From Candidatus Brocadia sinica JPN1 (lineage in GTDB: Bacteria; Planctomycetota; Brocadiia; Brocadiales; Brocadiaceae), in NCBI RefSeq assembly GCF_000949635.1, contig NZ_BAFN01000001.1:1736001-1800000 (forward strand): 64,000 nucleotides of DNA. The letters are read 5' to 3'. The notes under the pieces are model-generated. The model did not search any database. It saw only the letters and a program-made list of their open reading frames with translations, and was not told the DNA's origin. Both the position numbers and the translations under genes were made by a program. Shown here piece by piece: positions 2,486-40,818 of the stretch; position 1 is the stretch's first letter; the number at the start of each line of letters is the position of its first letter.

Positions 2486-5400
2486 ATGGAAAGAGTGAGT
2501 AAAACTATGTCTCAAAAAAAATATATTGGACTTGACATTGGTTCTGTAAGCATAAAGGCAGTATTGATCAACGAACGCAAGGAAATCCTGGAAGATCACT
2601 ACGTCCGTTCACATGGTCAATCGGTAGAAACATTCCTCCTGGTCTTGAGAGACATATTCAATCGAACCCATATCGATGATATTGACGGTATAGCTATTAC
2701 AGGATCTGGCGGGAAGCTCATATCCGAACTAATGAACATTGCCTTTATCAATGAGGTTGTTGCTCACAGCCAGGCAACGACAACCTTGCACCCGGAAGCG
2801 CGCACCATTATTGAAATCGGCGGTGAGGATTCAAAGCTCATGCTTATAGAGAAGGATGTGTCAACAGGGCATACCAAGGTTTCTGATTTTTCGATGAATA
2901 CCATGTGTGCTGCTGGTACGGGGTCGTTTTTGGATCAGCAGGCTACAAGGCTTGGTATCGCGATAGAAAAAGAATTTGGAGAGCTTGCATTGAAATCCAA
3001 AAACCCGCCGCGTATTGCCGGTCGTTGCAGTGTATTTGCCAAGACGGATATGATCCATTTACAGCAGGAAGGCACGCCGGTGCATGATATTGTTGCCGGA
3101 CTTTGTTATGCCATGGCCAGAAACTTTAAGAGCAACATCGGGAAGGGGAAGGAATTTTTCAGGCCCATCGTATTTCAGGGTGGTGTGGCAGCAAATGTCG
3201 GTATGGTCAAGGCATTTGAGGATGTTTTGGAACTCAAGCCCGGTGAACTGGTTATACCAAAGTATTTCAATGTAATGGGGGCTATCGGTACGGTGTTTAC
3301 CTTAATGGATAAAGGGATTCACTCGCCCTTCCGTGGATTAAAGGAAGTTGAAGAATACCTGAGGAGCCGCAGCGCAAAGGCGTCGAGCCTTGAACCACTT
3401 CGATCGGATAATTACAAAATTGTTGACATGATACACCCGGTTGCTGGCGACGAAAAGGTCGAGGCATATGTTGGGGTTGATGTGGGTTCTATCAGCACAA
3501 ATATTGTTGTTATCGACAAACAGAAAAATGTCCTGGCAAGACGCTATCTCATGACGGCAGGAAGGCCGTTGGAAGCCGTGAAACAAGGTCTTTATGAGGT
3601 GGGTCTGGAAGTCGGAGATAAGGTGGTTGTCTGCGGCGCCGGAACCACAGGTTCCGGGCGTTATCTGACAGGAGACTTTATCGGTGCTGATATCGCAAAG
3701 AATGAAATTACTGCCCACGCCACTGCGGCAGCAAACGTGGATAAAAATGTGGATACGATCTTCGAAATCGGTGGGCAGGATTCCAAGTTTATACGGTTGG
3801 AAAATGGGGCAATTGTGGATTTTGCCATGAATAAAGTCTGTGCTGCCGGTACCGGCTCATTTCTGGAAGAACAGGCCGAAAAACTCAGCGTAAGCATCAA
3901 AGGGGAATTTAGCAAACGGGCGCTTTCGTCGTGCTGCCCCTCACATCTTGGAGAACGGTGCACCGTTTTTATGGAATCCGACCTGAACCATCATCAGCAG
4001 CGCGGAACGTCCAAGGACGATCTGCTCGCAGGCCTGAGTTATTCTGTGGTGTTGAACTTTATCAACAGGGTTGTAGAGGATAGGAAGATCGGGAATACTA
4101 TTTTTTTCCAGGGGGGAGTTGCCGCCAACCGCGGTGTAAAGGCGGCGTTCGAAAAAGTAACAGGGAGAAAGATTATTGTTCCGCCTCATCACGATATTAT
4201 GGGGGCTATCGGATCTGCCATTATTGCTATGGAAGAAAGGGTATGGGAGAAATCCAGGTTTAAGGGGTTTGATCTCCGGCACAAGAGATACGACCTGTCT
4301 TCCTTCGTTTGTAAAGATTGTTCGAATATTTGTGAGATTCGAAAGGTCACTATCGATGGAGAAAACCCGCTTCATTACGGAAGTCGTTGCGGCAAATTTG
4401 ACGACGAAAAGACTTTGAAAAAAGGGAGGCACTTACCAAGGCTTTTTCGCGAGAGGAAAGATGCGCTCGTCAATACCTATAAGAAAAACAAACCGGATCA
4501 GCCTGCAGGAAAAAAGATCGGGATACCACAGGTATCTACCTTTCATGACCTCTACCCGATGTGGAAGGCGTTCTTCATCGAGCTGGGTTTTGATGTTATA
4601 ACCTCCAGTGATACTAATAAAGATATTATCTATAACGGTGTGGAAGTAATTACCGCAGAGACCTGCTTTCCTATCAAAGTTGCGCACGGACACGTGATCG
4701 ACATGTTAAACAGGGATATTGATTATCTGTTTTTGCCCAGCGTTATCAATTTAACGCATAGCAGCCCCCGGCTCACCCATTCGTATGCATGTCCTTACGT
4801 GCAGTGCATACCGTATCTCGTACGTTCGGCCATTGACTTTAAGGAAAAGAAGTTTGAAGTCTTATCCCCGGTCATTCATTTCGAATACGGAGAAGAGTTT
4901 GTGGACAAGACCCTGCGTCAAATCGCAAAAAGCCTTGGAAGAACCGGAGAGGTTGTTGAAATAGCGATAAAGTCGGCACGTGAGGCGCTGCAGACTTTTC
5001 ATAAAACCCTTGAGGCACGGGGAAAAGAGATCCTGGGAAAATTAGGAGAAAATGAAAAGGCATTCGTGCTGATCAGCCGTTCCTACAATGGTTGCGATAC
5101 GGGTATGAATCTTGGTCTTCCTGAAAAATTGCGTGATTTAGGAGTTTTGACAATCCCACTGGACTTTTTGAAACTTGATATTGAAGAAGTATCTCATGAT
5201 TATCCGAATATGTATTGGAAGACAGGACAAAAATTCCTCGCAGCGGCCAGGATAATTGCCAGGGATAAAAGGCTTTACCCCTTATATATTACCAACTTTG
5301 GCTGCGGTCCAGACTCGTTTATAACCAAATTTTTTGCCAAAGAATTGGCAGGAAAACCCTGTCTGACCATTGAAATTGACGAGCACAGCTCTGATGTTGG

Positions 5401-6781
5401 GGCAATAACCAGGTGCGAGGCATTTATTGATAGCCTTAAAAATGTTAAATCTGTCACTGATAGAAAAAAATTGAGAGACGATGTTCCGGTTCGGAACGTG
5501 ACGGAGAAAAAGAAACGCACGATTTACATTCCTTATATGTGTGACCACGGCAGGATGATTGCCGCCTCCATGAGGGCTAATGGTGTGCTGGCAGAAGCCT
5601 TGCCTATGGCCAATAAGCAGTCGATTGATATTGGACGAAAGTTTACTTCGGGAAAGGAATGCTACCCTGCAATTCTTACAACCGGGGATATTGTGAAAAA
5701 GGCTATGAGCCCTGACTTTGACCCTGAGGCAAGCGCCTTCTTTATGGCTACAGCATCCGGTCCTTGCCGGTTTGGCCAATACAATAAATTTCAGCGTATG
5801 GTATTGGATGATCTTGGATTTCCTCATGTACCTCTTTACACAATGGATCAGGGAGAAAACTACGACGAGGATACCAAGAGCCTTGGCACGCACTTCCGTA
5901 AACTGGCGTGGAACGGTATTATGTATATCGACCTCCTGCAAAAATTACAAAGGGAAACGAGGCCTTACGAACTACAGAAAGATGAAACGGATGCTCTTTA
6001 CGAAAACTTCGTGAAAAAGGCAGAGTCAGCGCTCGAAAAACATCAGGATCTGGTGAAATTCGCGCGGGAGGCGAATATTGCCTTTGCAAACATAAAAGTA
6101 GACCGAAGCAAGCCCAGACCATTAATCGGTGTCATTGGAGAGACCTATGTACGTTGTAATGAGTTTGCAAACAACTTTCTTGCAAGAAATATCGAACGTC
6201 TGGGAGGTGAGGTATTTATTCCGCCTTTTGCCGAATGGATTAATTATATTGCACACTGCCGCAGGGAATCGTGCCTTTTTGAAAAGGATTATAAGGGACT
6301 TTTCGGTGAGATTATCTCTGATATTGTTCAGAGGTACGATGCCTACAAACTTACGAAGGTGTTTAAAGGCAGAATCAGACATTTTCTGAAAGATGCGCCA
6401 ATTAAAGAACTCATCAGGAGGGGGAAACCGTATATTGACGATTCCTACAAAGGTGATCCGGTGCTCAGCATGGGGAAGGTAATTGAATACGTTGAGGAAG
6501 GGTTTGATGGTATCGTTAACGTAATTCCATTTCACTGCATGCCTGGTACGGTGGTGAATGGCGTACTTGAAAGGTTTCAGAAAGATTTTTACGGCATGCC
6601 CTGCCTGAAGTTGTCTTTTGATGGCCAGGAACAAACAAATGAAGAAACCCGGCTGGAGGCATTTATGCATCAGGCATATCAAAGGATGGAGGGGAAAGTA
6701 AATTCTCATAAACATGGCACGGTAAGCCGTAGACAAAAAAGCAAAGTAAGCAGTAGGCCGATGGCAGTAGGCAAAGGGTGA
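2486..6781 (+). CDS. Giant 2-hydroxyacyl-CoA dehydratase activase-like protein (two ATPase domains + DUF2229 + HgdB-like)
   Basis: A 1431-residue protein of the BadF/BcrA/HgdC activase superfamily fused to dehydratase-like parts. The first ASKHA ATPase domain starts at GLDIGS (about residue 16) with Fe-S cysteines in CAAGTGSF (about 140) and GRCSVF (about 180). A second copy starts at GVDVGS (about 331) with CAAGTGSF (about 452) and GERCTVF (about 491). The next part, starting near GIPQVSTFHDLYPMW (about 678), matches DUF2229; the C-terminal third (about 1014-1400, with YMCDHGRM, SGPCRFGQY and GETYVRCNEF) resembles HgdB-like dehydratase subunits. Known activases use ATP to drive one electron into a dehydratase Fe-S cluster. 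The substrate of this long form is not known to me. It lies between leuC and leuD on the same strand. A second in-frame ATG at 2507 is an alternative start. Confidence 0.88.
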   Translation: MERVSKTMSQKKYIGLDIGSVSIKAVLINERKEILEDHYVRSHGQSVETFLLVLRDIFNRTHIDDIDGIAITGSGGKLISELMNIAFINEVVAHSQATTTLHPEARTIIEIGGEDSKLMLIEKDVSTGHTKVSDFSMNTMCAAGTGSFLDQQATRLGIAIEKEFGELALKSKNPPRIAGRCSVFAKTDMIHLQQEGTPVHDIVAGLCYAMARNFKSNIGKGKEFFRPIVFQGGVAANVGMVKAFEDVLELKPGELVIPKYFNVMGAIGTVFTLMDKGIHSPFRGLKEVEEYLRSRSAKASSLEPLRSDNYKIVDMIHPVAGDEKVEAYVGVDVGSISTNIVVIDKQKNVLARRYLMTAGRPLEAVKQGLYEVGLEVGDKVVVCGAGTTGSGRYLTGDFIGADIAKNEITAHATAAANVDKNVDTIFEIGGQDSKFIRLENGAIVDFAMNKVCAAGTGSFLEEQAEKLSVSIKGEFSKRALSSCCPSHLGERCTVFMESDLNHHQQRGTSKDDLLAGLSYSVVLNFINRVVEDRKIGNTIFFQGGVAANRGVKAAFEKVTGRKIIVPPHHDIMGAIGSAIIAMEERVWEKSRFKGFDLRHKRYDLSSFVCKDCSNICEIRKVTIDGENPLHYGSRCGKFDDEKTLKKGRHLPRLFRERKDALVNTYKKNKPDQPAGKKIGIPQVSTFHDLYPMWKAFFIELGFDVITSSDTNKDIIYNGVEVITAETCFPIKVAHGHVIDMLNRDIDYLFLPSVINLTHSSPRLTHSYACPYVQCIPYLVRSAIDFKEKKFEVLSPVIHFEYGEEFVDKTLRQIAKSLGRTGEVVEIAIKSAREALQTFHKTLEARGKEILGKLGENEKAFVLISRSYNGCDTGMNLGLPEKLRDLGVLTIPLDFLKLDIEEVSHDYPNMYWKTGQKFLAAARIIARDKRLYPLYITNFGCGPDSFITKFFAKELAGKPCLTIEIDEHSSDVGAITRCEAFIDSLKNVKSVTDRKKLRDDVPVRNVTEKKKRTIYIPYMCDHGRMIAASMRANGVLAEALPMANKQSIDIGRKFTSGKECYPAILTTGDIVKKAMSPDFDPEASAFFMATASGPCRFGQYNKFQRMVLDDLGFPHVPLYTMDQGENYDEDTKSLGTHFRKLAWNGIMYIDLLQKLQRETRPYELQKDETDALYENFVKKAESALEKHQDLVKFAREANIAFANIKVDRSKPRPLIGVIGETYVRCNEFANNFLARNIERLGGEVFIPPFAEWINYIAHCRRESCLFEKDYKGLFGEIISDIVQRYDAYKLTKVFKGRIRHFLKDAPIKELIRRGKPYIDDSYKGDPVLSMGKVIEYVEEGFDGIVNVIPFHCMPGTVVNGVLERFQKDFYGMPCLKLSFDGQEQTNEETRLEAFMHQAYQRMEGKVNSHKHGTVSRRQKSKVSSRPMAVGKG

Positions 6782-10407: not shown

Positions 10408-12960
10408 GTGAAAACAGATGGGAGGTCTGCCGTTCCTTCCGCAAATACAGGGAGCCGCTCTGTCCAGCTTTGCAGTGGTGTGGTAGCCGGTATCGGTGCA
10501 ATAGTGTTGTTGGGCTGGATATGGGATTTTCTCTTATTGGCCAGCGGTTACTCAGATTATATACCAATGGCCCCAAATACTGCCGTAATATTCGTTGTCT
10601 TGGGCATTACGTTGTATGTCATCATCCGCTGGTCTGCAAACCGCATTCTCCGTTGTTTTGCTAAAGTCACGACAGTTTTTGTCGTGCTCCTTTGCTCGTT
10701 GATATTCATCCAATATGTAACTGATAGTGATCTTGGCATTGACCAATTATTTTTCGTTACCACGAAAACACTCGGAAAGATACCTGTGGGTCTCATGTCT
10801 CCTATTACAGCCGCATGCTTTATTCTCTCCGGTCTTTCACTGATGCTTGCGCTATCTTTTCCGGAAAATGGAAGGTATGCGAAAAGTATAGCATCCAGCC
10901 TTGCAACAATAGTAATATTTGTAGGATCGATCGTGATCCTTGGATATCTGTATAGAACGCCTTTGCTTTATGGCGGGACGATAATACCGATGGCGCTTAC
11001 AACTGCAGTTGCCTTTGTATTTCTGGGCACAGGACTGATATTTACTATTGGCCAGGAGTACTGGCCACAGTGCCTGGTGACAGGTTTGTCAACACGTGCC
11101 CGTTTGATGCGGGCGTTTCTTCCCGTTACGGTTGTTATTGTTATCATCATGGGTTGGATATATACCGTTATTGTCCTGCAGTCAAAAAGTAACCCGGCAT
11201 TACTGTCAGCGCTGCTTGCGATCCTGTTTATGGTTGTTATTGGCTTTATTGTTTCCCATACAGCAAGTATCATCGGGAACGCGATTGACCTTGCCGAAAC
11301 AAAGCGCAATCTGGCAGAAATACAACTCCGCAAGTTGTCACAGGCTGTTGAACAAAGCCAAAGTATGGTGTTAATAACCGATGCAGCAGGTAATATTGAA
11401 TACACGAATCCCAAATTTACCCAACTTACAGGCTACACCCTGGAAGAAACCATAGGACAAAATCCTCGTATCCTAAAATCGGGAGAGACGTCACCCGAAG
11501 AATACAAACAGTTGTGGGATACGATTACCTCCGGCAGAGAGTGGCGTGGGGAATTTCATAACAGGAAAAAGAACGGCGAACTTTATTGGGAGTATGCATC
11601 CATTTCCCCTGTCAGAAATTCTGACGGAGTTATTACCAATTTCCTTGCTGTAAAAGAAGATATCACGGAACGTAAAAATTTCGAAGCACAGCTTATGCGC
11701 CTGGCAGATCGTGATCCACTCACCAATCTCCTTAACCGCCGCCGCTTCCAGGAAGAGTTGAATAGCTCGCTTGCACAGGCGCGGCGACACGATACCAGCG
11801 GGGCATTGTTGTTTCTGGACCTGGATAATTTTAAAGACATTAACGATACCCTTGGACATCAGGCGGGAGATGAAATTCTTACACATCTTGCCGATATATT
11901 GAAAAAAAGACTGCGGGAATCTGACATTATAGCTCGTCTGGGCGGTGACGAATTTGCCATCCTCTTGTCTCACATCGATGCCAGCCATGCGCAGTCTGTT
12001 GCTGAACAGATTATTGATTCGGTGTATAGTCACGTTATGATCGTTCATGAGCAACCGACCAGAGTTACTGTCAGTATTGGTATTGCCCTCTTTCCTTTCC
12101 ACGGCAATACATCTGAAACATTACTGAAGTGTGCTGATCTTGCCATGTATCGGGCGAAAAAAGAAGGCCGAAACCGTGCATGTGTTTATACCCATGGACA
12201 GAAGACAAAGATTGAAACACTACTAAACTGGGAAAAAAACATCCGTGAAGCGCTCTATCTGAACCGTTTTGTGCTGCATCTGCAGCCTATTGCGGATATG
12301 CGTGAAAATTGTATTGTGGGCTATGAGGCGTTATTGCGAATGATTGGTGAAAACAATGAACTCATCCATCCAGCAGCATTTCTTGATGTTGCTGAACGTT
12401 CCGATCTTATCAATGATATAGATCGATGGGTAGTACGCAGGGCCATCAGGATCATTACAGAAATATGCAAATCTGATAAAAATCTGTATATTGGAGCCAA
12501 TCTCTCTGGTAAGGCATTCGACGACCCGGAACTGATATCTATCATTAATCAGGAATTGGCAGCCACCGCTATTAACCCGGTAAACCTTGTTCTGGAAATT
12601 ACCGAAAGCGCCGTTATCACAGACATTATCGAAGCACAGCATTTTATTACTACCCTCAAGGCCATGGGCTGTCGCTTTGCCCTGGACGATTTTGGCACCG
12701 GCTTTTCATCGCTCAATTATCTCAAGCATTTACCCGTCGATTATTTGAAGATTGATGGTAGCTTTATCCGTAATCTGCCAAACGACTCAGCAGACCAACA
12801 TTTGGTCAGGGCAATAGTAGAAGTAGCGCGTGGTTTGAATAAACAGACTATAGCCGAGTTTGTGGAATGTGAAGAAGCGGTACGATTGCTGTTAGAATAC
12901 GGAGTGGATTATGCCCAGGGGTATCATATTGGCCGGCCAAGGGCAATGTCTGAGATATGA
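10408..12960 (+). CDS. Membrane PAS-GGDEF-EAL cyclic di-GMP enzyme
   Basis: An 850-residue protein that can in principle both make and break cyclic di-GMP at the inner membrane. About residues 20-290 hold roughly eight hydrophobic helices. A PAS domain follows (about 311-420; VLITDAAGNIEYTN, then GYTLEETIGQNPRIL). The GGDEF domain (about 430-590) has the intact active site GGDEF (511) and an intact inhibitory I-site RESD five residues before it. The EAL domain (about 605-850) has YEALLR, LEITES and ALDDFGTGFSSL, so its metal-binding residues look intact. The start is GTG, supported by an AGGAGG ribosome site nine bases upstream. Which activity dominates cannot be told. A c-di-GMP riboswitch occurs elsewhere in the window (39.9 kb). 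Confidence 0.93.
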   Translation: MKTDGRSAVPSANTGSRSVQLCSGVVAGIGAIVLLGWIWDFLLLASGYSDYIPMAPNTAVIFVVLGITLYVIIRWSANRILRCFAKVTTVFVVLLCSLIFIQYVTDSDLGIDQLFFVTTKTLGKIPVGLMSPITAACFILSGLSLMLALSFPENGRYAKSIASSLATIVIFVGSIVILGYLYRTPLLYGGTIIPMALTTAVAFVFLGTGLIFTIGQEYWPQCLVTGLSTRARLMRAFLPVTVVIVIIMGWIYTVIVLQSKSNPALLSALLAILFMVVIGFIVSHTASIIGNAIDLAETKRNLAEIQLRKLSQAVEQSQSMVLITDAAGNIEYTNPKFTQLTGYTLEETIGQNPRILKSGETSPEEYKQLWDTITSGREWRGEFHNRKKNGELYWEYASISPVRNSDGVITNFLAVKEDITERKNFEAQLMRLADRDPLTNLLNRRRFQEELNSSLAQARRHDTSGALLFLDLDNFKDINDTLGHQAGDEILTHLADILKKRLRESDIIARLGGDEFAILLSHIDASHAQSVAEQIIDSVYSHVMIVHEQPTRVTVSIGIALFPFHGNTSETLLKCADLAMYRAKKEGRNRACVYTHGQKTKIETLLNWEKNIREALYLNRFVLHLQPIADMRENCIVGYEALLRMIGENNELIHPAAFLDVAERSDLINDIDRWVVRRAIRIITEICKSDKNLYIGANLSGKAFDDPELISIINQELAATAINPVNLVLEITESAVITDIIEAQHFITTLKAMGCRFALDDFGTGFSSLNYLKHLPVDYLKIDGSFIRNLPNDSADQHLVRAIVEVARGLNKQTIAEFVECEEAVRLLLEYGVDYAQGYHIGRPRAMSEI

Positions 12961-37287: not shown

Positions 37288-39747
37288 ATGATGATGTTTT
37301 TTATGAGCACTGTTCGTTCCCCTGCGCCCCGCTACTTTCCCACAAAATTGAACAAGTATCTGAAAGACATTGCACCTTATAGTATTCTGGCAGCAATATC
37401 GGTCGTCGTTTTTCTTAACACCCTGAGCAATACCTTTGTTTACGACGACTCTGCAACCGTCGTAAACAATAACCTGATTAAGAACTGGAAAAACCTCCAC
37501 TCAATCTTTTCCTTTCATTATTTTATTCTCTCCGGAGAACTTAGCTATCGTCCCGTTGTTACGCTATCGTATTTTGCCGATTATTTCCTTTGGGGTTTAA
37601 ATCCTGCTGGTTTTCATCTTACAAACATCCTCCTTCAAACAGCAAATACCGTATTGTTTTACGTCTTTGTGAAACAGGTTACGAAGGCAAATACAGCAGC
37701 CTTTATCTCTACGCTATTATTTGCCACTCATCCGATTCTCACCGAGACGGTAAACTCCATTAGTTATCGGGAAGACCTTCTTGCTGCACTCTTTTTCTTA
37801 ATCGCCTTTGTCTTATTTCTGAAAATCGATGAAAAATCTTTAACCCGGGGTAAATTTTTTGCGTATTATGCAGGCTCCTTATTTGCCTGCTTCTTATCCC
37901 TCTTTTCAAAAGAGACGGCGGTTGCATTCCCTGTCCTGCTTGTGCTGTTTAACGTCTTTTCTGCAACTCCAGCCAGCCCCCTTCGTTCAATGATAAAAAG
38001 GGTGAAAGGTGTTTCCATCGGCTATTTTCTAGTCACCGGTTTTTATCTGTTTATCCGGTTTGTGTTGTTTCGGCATGTGTACATTCGATTGGATCAAACT
38101 CAGCAAGGCTTGTTTGTCATGCTTAAGGTTATTGCATCGTATATAAAGCTCTTGTTTTTTCCATTCAATCTTAATGCCGATTATGTGGTTCCGCCGGTAA
38201 ATGCAGGAATACCAGCTTTTATAATCTCAGTGCTCCTCGTAATTACAACCGTCATCCTTCTGATACGATTATGTCAAAGTAATGAACAACATGGGTTTTT
38301 TCTCTCGTGGTTCTTTGTTACGCTCTTACCGGTATTAAACATAATTCCCATAGGAAATATTATGGCGGAACGATATCTCTATATTCCCATTATGGGTTTC
38401 TCCGGGGTTATCGGAATGCTTGTTCAAAATTATACTCTGAAAAAAAACTTAGCAACAATGTGCCTGGGAACCGTTATTGTTGTCTTCGGTATTACCAGTG
38501 TCCACCGGAACGGAATATGGCGGGATGAACTCACCTTATGGTGTTCAACCGTTAATCGTGAGCCTAACAGTGCCCGTGCTCATCACAATCTCGGTGTTGT
38601 GCATAGTTTAAAAGGCTTCTATGACTATGCCGAATTTGAATATAAAAAGACGCTGGAAATTAAGCCCAGGGATGCAGAGTCACACTATAACATGGGAAAT
38701 GCCTACGAGAGGAAAGGTATGTTCGATGCTGCTATCAAAGAATATCAGGAGGCATTGCGGTACAATCCGGTTTATGCCGATGCCTATAATAATCTTGGTG
38801 GTATATATAAAAACAAACGTCATATCGACAGGGCTATCGAACTCTATAAAAAAGCAACCCAATGTAACCCGTTCAATCCCTACTATTACAATAATCTTGG
38901 ACTTGCATACCGTGAAAATAAACTCTACAAAGAGGCTATTGCTGACTTGAGAAAGGCATTACAAATAAACTCCGGGATCTCCACCACACATAACAACCTG
39001 GGAAATACTTACAGGGAAATGGGGAACTTCGGGGAGGCATTGACTGAGTTCAAAACAGCGCTGAAGCTGGACCCTGCGAACGCTGATCTCCACAACAATC
39101 TGGGGATTATTTTTACAGATATGGAGCAGTTTGAGAAGGCCATACATGAATTTGATACCGCAATTCGACTCAATCCAAAATTGGCCAATGTGCATAATAA
39201 CCTTGGCATTGTCTATGCGAAGAAGGGTTATCCCGATAAGGCTGTTAATGAACTGAATGAGGCAGTTGCACGGGGATTTGACAATGCGGATGTGCATAAT
39301 AATTTAGCGGGGATATATTTGACGAAGGGATCAACAGATAACGCGATTGCTGAACTTCAGTTGGCCTTAAAATGTAATCCTGTAGATAGCAATGCCCACT
39401 GTAACCTGGGAAATGCTTATATGTCAAAAAATCTTGTGGATGAAGCCATTTCTGAGTTTAAAGAGGCAGTAAAATACAATCCCGCCGATGGAGAGATATA
39501 CTATTATCTTGGAAATGCCTTTTACCGGAAAGGACAATACAGTGAATCGGTAGATTCTCTTCACCAATCGGTTCACTATCAGCCGAATAACCCGTTAGCA
39601 CATAAACTACTCGGCGTTATTTATGCAAATTACTTAAACAACCCTTCCAGCGCATTATTCCACCTGAACGAAACACTCAGATTAGACTCTCGGCAATCCA
39701 TGGCAAAAGAAATAACGGAATTCATCAGCAAGCTAAAAAATAAGTAG
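37288..39747 (+). CDS. TMTC-like multi-spanning membrane protein with C-terminal TPRs
   Basis: An 819-residue protein: an N-terminal half with about ten membrane helices and a C-terminal half with about eleven TPR units (from HHNLGVVHSLKGFYDYAEFEY to residue 800). The first loop after helix 1 carries FVYDDSATV; an acidic pair in this place is the catalytic signature of GT-C glycosyltransferases that use lipid-linked sugars. ELSYRPVVTLSYF and ISYREDLLA are typical of the family that includes eukaryotic TMTC O-mannosyltransferases. Role, by family: protein glycosylation or envelope assembly outside the inner membrane. Close paralogue at 61644-63935 on the other strand. The tandem ATGs at 37288-37296 leave the exact start open by two codons. 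Confidence 0.85.
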   Translation: MMMFFMSTVRSPAPRYFPTKLNKYLKDIAPYSILAAISVVVFLNTLSNTFVYDDSATVVNNNLIKNWKNLHSIFSFHYFILSGELSYRPVVTLSYFADYFLWGLNPAGFHLTNILLQTANTVLFYVFVKQVTKANTAAFISTLLFATHPILTETVNSISYREDLLAALFFLIAFVLFLKIDEKSLTRGKFFAYYAGSLFACFLSLFSKETAVAFPVLLVLFNVFSATPASPLRSMIKRVKGVSIGYFLVTGFYLFIRFVLFRHVYIRLDQTQQGLFVMLKVIASYIKLLFFPFNLNADYVVPPVNAGIPAFIISVLLVITTVILLIRLCQSNEQHGFFLSWFFVTLLPVLNIIPIGNIMAERYLYIPIMGFSGVIGMLVQNYTLKKNLATMCLGTVIVVFGITSVHRNGIWRDELTLWCSTVNREPNSARAHHNLGVVHSLKGFYDYAEFEYKKTLEIKPRDAESHYNMGNAYERKGMFDAAIKEYQEALRYNPVYADAYNNLGGIYKNKRHIDRAIELYKKATQCNPFNPYYYNNLGLAYRENKLYKEAIADLRKALQINSGISTTHNNLGNTYREMGNFGEALTEFKTALKLDPANADLHNNLGIIFTDMEQFEKAIHEFDTAIRLNPKLANVHNNLGIVYAKKGYPDKAVNELNEAVARGFDNADVHNNLAGIYLTKGSTDNAIAELQLALKCNPVDSNAHCNLGNAYMSKNLVDEAISEFKEAVKYNPADGEIYYYLGNAFYRKGQYSESVDSLHQSVHYQPNNPLAHKLLGVIYANYLNNPSSALFHLNETLRLDSRQSMAKEITEFISKLKNK

Positions 39748-39844: not shown

Positions 39845-39872
39845 TTGACAATGAAAAAATTACATTTATAAT
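39845..39872 (+). promoter_or_regulatory. Consensus sigma-70 promoter of the riboswitch transcript
   Basis: TTGACA at 39845-39850 and TATAAT at 39867-39872 with a 16-base spacer, both boxes perfect. The predicted transcript would start near 39880, immediately ahead of the c-di-GMP aptamer. Confidence 0.75.
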
Positions 39873-39879
39873 ATAACAA

Positions 39880-39958
39880 CGATAAAGGCAAACTCCGAGT
39901 GATCGGGGGACGCAAAGGAAAGGGTCTTTAATAGGTTCATGCGGGGTTCACCTGAGAT
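39880..39958 (+). ncRNA. Class I cyclic di-GMP riboswitch (GEMM-I)
   Basis: The conserved blocks of the GEMM-I aptamer occur in order: GGCAAAC (39887-39893), a hairpin CCGA-GTGA-TCGG with a GNRA loop, GACGCAAAGG (39909-39918), then GGTTCATGCGGGGTTCACC as the second hairpin with the conserved GCGGGG. The second helix is shorter than in the textbook Vc2 RNA. It lies about 135 bases ahead of the probable start of the amidase gene and directly after a consensus promoter. A small CTTTAA/TTAAAG hairpin at 39988-40002 is the only candidate for the expression platform; no T-run follows it, so control may be at translation. Binding is inferred from the pattern. Confidence 0.85.
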
Positions 39959-40092
39959 AATAAAAGAGACGCGTACCATAGAGGAAGCTTTAACTTTTAA
40001 AGATAGCCTTACTGCCGAAGATGTTCGGGAATGAATATTTTCACAGCAAGGCTTTTTTTATTTCTAAAAACTTTAAGTTAAGGCGGCATTCT

Positions 40093-40818
40093 ATGCATAG
40101 AAAAATAGTATCCTTATTGTCGCGAAACTCGAAGATCTATTTTAGGAATAGAATCATGCACCAGGGCGAGAGGATGGTTCAATGCCTTTCGCTCATTATG
40201 ATACTGGTTGCATCGGGCTTGTGTGTTTCTACACCCTTTTTTACCAGTGTAAAGATTGAAAGAACGAAAAGACCGGAAGGCCTTGGAAGTTCCTCCTATG
40301 TGCAAGATCTCGAAAAACTCTGTCGCATCAATACAAATGGAAGACCATGGGAGTATATCGTTATACATCACAGCGCCACGGCAAAAGGTAATGCCGCCCG
40401 ATTTGACCATTACCACCGGAAAAACAGAAAATGGCAGCATGGCCTCGCTTACCATTTTGTGATTGGGAACGGATCTGTTTCAGGAGATGGTGAAATTGAG
40501 GTTGGTGAGCGCTGGAAAAAACAAATTCATGGCGCCCATACAGCGAATATGGATTGTAATCGTGTAGCAATCGGGGTTTGTCTGGTTGGTGATTTTGAAA
40601 ACGGGGGAGCCCCAACCGAAAACCAACTCGATTCGCTCGTCAGACTTATCCAATATCTTTCCAGAAAATACAATATTGCTTCATCTAATATATTACAGCA
40701 TAAAGAGGTGCATCAGAAATGTACCGCCTGTCCAGGTAAAAATTTCCCATTTGCAGAGATTAAGACAAGATTGCTGCAAATCGCATCAAAAGGAAGCAAG
40801 CATATCCAGGAATTATAA
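40093..40818 (+). CDS. Exported PGRP-like N-acetylmuramoyl-L-alanine amidase
   Basis: A 241-residue amidase_2/PGRP-type peptidoglycan amidase with an N-terminal membrane segment (LSLIMILVASGLCVSTPFF). The zinc-binding core is visible: IVIHHSATAKGN, AYHFVIGNG, WKKQIHGAHT, VAIGVCLVGDFE and HKEVHQKCTACPGKNFPF. It cleaves between muramic acid and the stem peptide in the periplasm. I chose ATG 40093, preceded by AAGGCGG; ATG 40021 and 40156 are alternatives. The leader carries a class I c-di-GMP riboswitch, so amidase synthesis is probably tuned by cyclic di-GMP, for instance in biofilm or envelope remodelling. Confidence 0.85.
   Translation: MHRKIVSLLSRNSKIYFRNRIMHQGERMVQCLSLIMILVASGLCVSTPFFTSVKIERTKRPEGLGSSSYVQDLEKLCRINTNGRPWEYIVIHHSATAKGNAARFDHYHRKNRKWQHGLAYHFVIGNGSVSGDGEIEVGERWKKQIHGAHTANMDCNRVAIGVCLVGDFENGGAPTENQLDSLVRLIQYLSRKYNIASSNILQHKEVHQKCTACPGKNFPFAEIKTRLLQIASKGSKHIQEL

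Follow-up and report, generated by a model that had tools for sequence, protein, structure and literature searches.

A predicted c-di-GMP ON switch in the leader of a conserved amidase gene of Candidatus Brocadia sinica

The leader of a predicted N-acetylmuramoyl-L-alanine amidase gene in Candidatus Brocadia sinica very probably constitutes a self-contained c-di-GMP ON switch. It carries a consensus promoter, a GEMM-I aptamer and an intrinsic terminator that shares a strand with the aptamer, all on the + strand, as is the gene itself. Flanked by a TPR-protein gene (37288-39747) on one side and a convergent pilus-type secretin operon on the other, the gene stands alone and has a control region of its own. 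Positions here are those of the window, the whole 64,000-nucleotide stretch of DNA that was analysed.

The sigma-70-type promoter (39845-39872) is predicted to start transcription near 39879, at the 5' edge of the aptamer. Its TTGACA (39845-39850) and TATAAT (39867-39872) elements, separated by 16 nt, are present as originally predicted and are the sole exact match to this arrangement in the 64-kb window, where 0.07 would be expected. Both the -35 and -10 elements are retained upstream of nearly all orthologous Brocadia leaders. Among the 56 GEMM-I sites of the genome, only the amidase site has a promoter that agrees with the consensus at 12 of 12 positions directly 5' of the aptamer. Such a promoter was rejected as a general feature of the other 55 sites because most of them score near shuffled levels.

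The covariance model for GEMM-I (c-di-GMP-I, RF01051), proposed as a check in the original prediction, matches positions 39877-40019 with 55.4 bits (gathering score 35, E = 4.2e-8), and this is the only Rfam match in the window. The same copy scores 37 bits in a whole-genome scan, the second weakest of the 56 sites, and all conserved positions of the aptamer are intact in it. Covariation supports the two-helix architecture of the c-di-GMP-I class here. Across an alignment of 18 leaders upstream of orthologous amidases, 95.2% of cells in the aptamer pairing are paired and there are 25 double-sided changes, versus 6.2 in shuffles. The P1b hairpin (39887-39914), which has a GUGA tetraloop and is flanked by the predicted ligand contacts G20 and A47, has compensatory changes at four of its six pairs. 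Judged by sequence and pairing, the element is a further member of this well-known class.

The 5' strand of the P2/P3 helix is AGGAAAGGGUCUUU (39916-39929), and its partner occupies 39999-40013. The conserved 3' block of the aptamer is AAAGAUAGCCUUACUGCC (39999-40016), in which C92 corresponds to 40015 or 40016. Three of the GEMM blocks named in the original prediction, GGCAAAC, the GNRA (GUGA) hairpin and GACGCAAAGG, lie where it placed them, but the fourth, GCGGGG (39941-39946), does not represent the conserved 3' block. It lies within the variable distal loop (39930-39998), a 62-nt insert in the Rfam alignment that differs in length and sequence from species to species, and relatives have GCGGGA, GCGGAA or no counterpart. 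The element resembles RF01051 in sequence and structure family, in its contact bases and in its location in the 5' leader of a surface or envelope gene. It differs from the consensus, which has a UAA...UAU tetraloop receptor, in combining a GUGA loop and the distal insert with a continuous distal helix (CU:AG) that possibly serves as a helical receptor. A GNRA loop was found by pattern at 55 of the 56 genome sites.

An intrinsic terminator (40006-40059) follows, with arms at 40006-40014 and 40044-40052 and a U tract of seven nucleotides (40053-40059). Its 5' arm, GCCUUACUG (40006-40014), also serves as the 3' strand in the second helix of the aptamer. The nucleotide at 40011 has two alternative partners, 39918 in the aptamer and 40047 in the terminator, and among species the triplet 39918/40011/40047 varies between U-A-U, G-C-G, C-G-C and, once, U-G-U. 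Because these three positions change together, aptamer P2 and the terminator are mutually exclusive, and ligand binding should block termination. The terminator helix is paired in 93.8% of cells in the 18 leaders and has 15 double-sided changes versus 4.8 in shuffles; for both helices, the number of such changes lies above all 500 shuffles and every slid register. In the amidase-site copy, each alternative helix contains a single mismatch (G.A at 39918/40011 and A.C at 40011/40047), so the switching range of this copy may be modest.

Folding calculations for the leader give a z score of -3.84. The predicted ligand-free energy of the full leader is -51.3 kcal/mol with the terminator versus -37.4 kcal/mol for the alternative, a preference of about 14 kcal/mol, and before the terminator is complete a different fold is preferred by 7 kcal/mol, in a model that leaves out ligand and tertiary contacts. 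The terminator-favouring energies are in keeping with a default OFF state. RNA polymerase would initiate at the consensus promoter and transcribe the GEMM-I aptamer first. When c-di-GMP is high, folding of the aptamer would hold CCUUAC (40007-40012) in P2, the terminator would not form and the amidase gene would be transcribed. At low c-di-GMP, CCUUAC would instead pair with the downstream GCAAGG, and the resulting terminator would stop transcription before the ATG.

This layout has a precedent in the Bc2 RNA upstream of cap in Bacillus thuringiensis, which experimentally is an ON switch with the ligand as anti-terminator (PMC4933901). Both have a terminator that overlaps the aptamer and a surface target. 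The Bc2 target is a collagen adhesin in a Gram-positive bacterium with few sites, whereas the Brocadia target is an amidase in a genome with 56.

All 11 Brocadia genomes searched have the riboswitch ahead of the orthologous amidase, and the pair also occurs in four other Brocadiaceae genera (g7, g9, g11 and part of g10). The neighbouring TPR gene, a 115-aa open reading frame and the secretin gene are retained in most Brocadia loci. Elsewhere the riboswitch survives as a fossil: Jettenia-type leaders (L102-L104) and two others (L108, L109) keep the promoter, the terminator or both, while the aptamer core is eroded or deleted. Since the aptamer has decayed or gone from before the amidase in several sister genera, its control must be dispensable there. 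The amidase tree, although weak in its deep forks, fits a single riboswitch-bearing lineage and later losses. GEMM-I membership, the G20 and A47 contacts and the family-wide conservation of the pair favour the originally suggested control of the amidase by c-di-GMP. The accompanying remark that such control is not common seems fair in general, but the pair is the rule within the genus Brocadia. A search of the open literature, mostly without subscription papers and hence weak as evidence of absence, returned no paper that treats a c-di-GMP or GEMM riboswitch together with an amidase. Riboswitches receive only passing mention together with Brocadia or anammox in the same open literature, where absence is again weak evidence.

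A GEMM-I variant that recognizes a different cyclic dinucleotide, whether cAMP-GMP or the one sensed by the GGC variant, is very unlikely to occupy this leader. Some Geobacter GEMM-I RNAs are cAMP-GMP sensors (PMC7266159; PMC8683041), and the c-di-GMP-I-GGC model (RF03167) ranks above RF01051 on this stretch by E-value. However, the bases that mark these variants are missing. Position 47 is G in the GGC model but A (39914) in this RNA, and the model scores 53.5 bits, below its own gathering score of 59. The cAMP-GMP type (GEMM-Ib) needs A at position 20, so the G at 39887 argues against it. We take 39887 and 39914 to be G20 and A47 of the Vc2 numbering; both bases are of the c-di-GMP type, and the genome's GEMM-I sites have G at position 20 in 55 of 56 cases and A at position 47 in all 56.

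It is also unlikely that the aptamer is a decaying relic in a leader that acts mainly as a constitutive promoter with a partial terminator. The mismatches in both helices of this copy would fit such a history, as would the Jettenia-type, L108 and L109 leaders, in which the aptamer decays and the terminator is kept. Nevertheless, the conserved aptamer positions are all intact here, and the compensatory changes in Brocadia and the genera closer to it show that selection has continued. The opposite direction of control, with ligand lowering amidase expression, is the least probable of these readings and is highly improbable on the layout of the leader. Both ON and OFF c-di-GMP riboswitches exist, and ligand-free intermediates are difficult to model by computed folding. 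Even so, the shared strand is the 5' arm of the terminator, so aptamer folding abolishes the terminator; an OFF switch would require an additional anti-antiterminator, none of which was seen in the leader; and Bc2, with the same layout, is ON. A c-di-GMP ON switch remains the preferred reading.

The likely ribosome-binding site of the amidase gene is AAGGCGG (40080-40086), 6 nt 5' of an ATG at 40093, and both are conserved in most Brocadia orthologues. The first ATG of the reading frame, at 40021, lies inside the terminator and was rejected as the start in favour of the conserved one. The gene (40093-40818) encodes a 241-aa protein with an N-terminal hydrophobic segment, and the original assignment to the PGRP-like amidases holds, with 80 bits for Amidase_2 (PF01510) against a cut-off of 26. 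Its closest solved relatives by sequence are 6srt and 6ssc (E about 5e-15), and T7 lysozyme (1lba) is a weaker match. H92, Y120, H203 and C213 are invariant among 44 homologues; from a sequence alignment with 6srt and background knowledge, we take them to be the metal-ligand and catalytic positions. The Brocadia protein shares with these structures the Amidase_2 family and the matching histidine, tyrosine and cysteine positions. It differs in its N-terminal hydrophobic segment and in being the predicted amidase product of a conserved cellular gene, not a phage lysin.

Anammox bacteria were shown only in 2015 to possess peptidoglycan (PMC4432595), which is therefore a plausible substrate. The zinc amidase, exported or membrane-anchored, would trim envelope peptidoglycan in aggregated cells with high c-di-GMP. 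A paralogue elsewhere in the genome (L114, about 1500-2670; G000:C1:752710) is a 73% identical amidase that lacks a riboswitch and lies directly 3' of a truncated EAL domain, as read by eye.

The scan of the complete genome (4,077,002 bases in 3 contigs) gave a full count of 56 GEMM-I sites, 55 of them above the gathering score (loci L031-L083). Read by eye, 54 of the 56 have the same aptamer-overlapping terminator, AGCCUUACUGCCGAAGAU...AUCUUUGCAGUAAGGCUUUUUU, in nearly uniform form; a strict pattern finds it at 51, and at three of the five sites missed the terminator is longer or imperfect. The first downstream genes, called mechanically and then scanned with Pfam, suggest a target set dominated by surface and secreted proteins, with LamG, Ig, PKD, RCC1, beta-propeller and DUF11 types. 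Other targets are cytochromes, sigma-54 activators, a UDP-sugar pyrophosphorylase, an O-antigen-ligase-like protein, an ABC-2 exporter and a caspase-like protein. The genome has 17 GGDEF and 9 PilZ matches and must therefore have c-di-GMP chemistry. One of these 17 GGDEF domains belongs to a PAS-GGDEF-EAL gene in the window (10408-12960), 27 kb from the riboswitch.

Several individual sites depart from the common arrangement or have unusual targets. Two near-identical short sites on the - strand (L031, G000:C1:10559-10642; L035, 4031780-4031856) have no terminator and lie immediately 5' of genes for large LamG proteins, where control is possibly translational. A second peptidoglycan-hydrolase target (L063, 1153-6369; G000:C1:2570007) is a 1739-aa protein with Amidase_3, M23, TIG and golvesin-like domains. 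Another site (L041, about 3510-6000; G000:C1:1909802) is followed by an 80-aa open reading frame and a contractile-tail sheath protein, and c-di-GMP may control an injection-type system there. A weak site of 33.6 bits (L083, 1001-5624; G000:C1:2104847) precedes a gene for a 1478-aa PAS-GGDEF-EAL protein, through which c-di-GMP might feed back on its own turnover. Two sites about 750 nt apart (L061; G000:C1:792404 and 793157) lie upstream of a single 426-aa gene. One - strand site (L079, about 5953-6115; G000:C1:568048-568160) is the only one in the genome with A for G at position 20 (GAGCAAAA), a substitution characteristic of cAMP-GMP sensors. It also contains an extra, incomplete 3' block (ACAACCUUACUUCC).

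Counts for other genomes come from two surveys, in which up to 48 and up to 21 candidates were scored. Among the matches listed, Brocadia genomes have from at least 19 to at least 43 GEMM-I sites, the rest of the Brocadiaceae 1-28, the rest of the order 0-11, and Planctomycetota genomes sampled outside the order 0-3. The high Brocadia numbers against 0-3 outside the order indicate a lineage-specific expansion. Clostridioides difficile has 12 type I sites, two of them in the host-lysis module of a prophage (PMC3649979). This Cdi1 set is likewise a multi-copy c-di-GMP-I set that has partly spread by duplication, but it has far fewer copies, and the Brocadia target described here is a chromosomal cell amidase whose orthologue is conserved over the family.

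Together, the approximately 56 equivalent switches appear to form the principal output of c-di-GMP signalling in this organism. Anammox bacteria work in granules and biofilms, and to our knowledge their switch to this state is not settled. We consider it reasonably probable, though less so than the amidase switch itself, that Brocadia responds to c-di-GMP mainly by means of RNA. GEMM-I antitermination switches, multiplied in a burst within this lineage and built on one uniform terminator module, would control the surface proteins, adhesins, cytochromes, contractile-tail system, sigma-54 regulators and peptidoglycan hydrolases on which granule formation would depend, with the amidase as a conserved target. 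The single element belongs to a known class; most noteworthy are the conserved control of the amidase and the regulon of 56 antitermination sites. The prediction places more than 50 genes under one signal and gives the direction of control, which makes the granule or biofilm switch testable, and the predicted control of the amidase would link peptidoglycan trimming to c-di-GMP in the anammox group.
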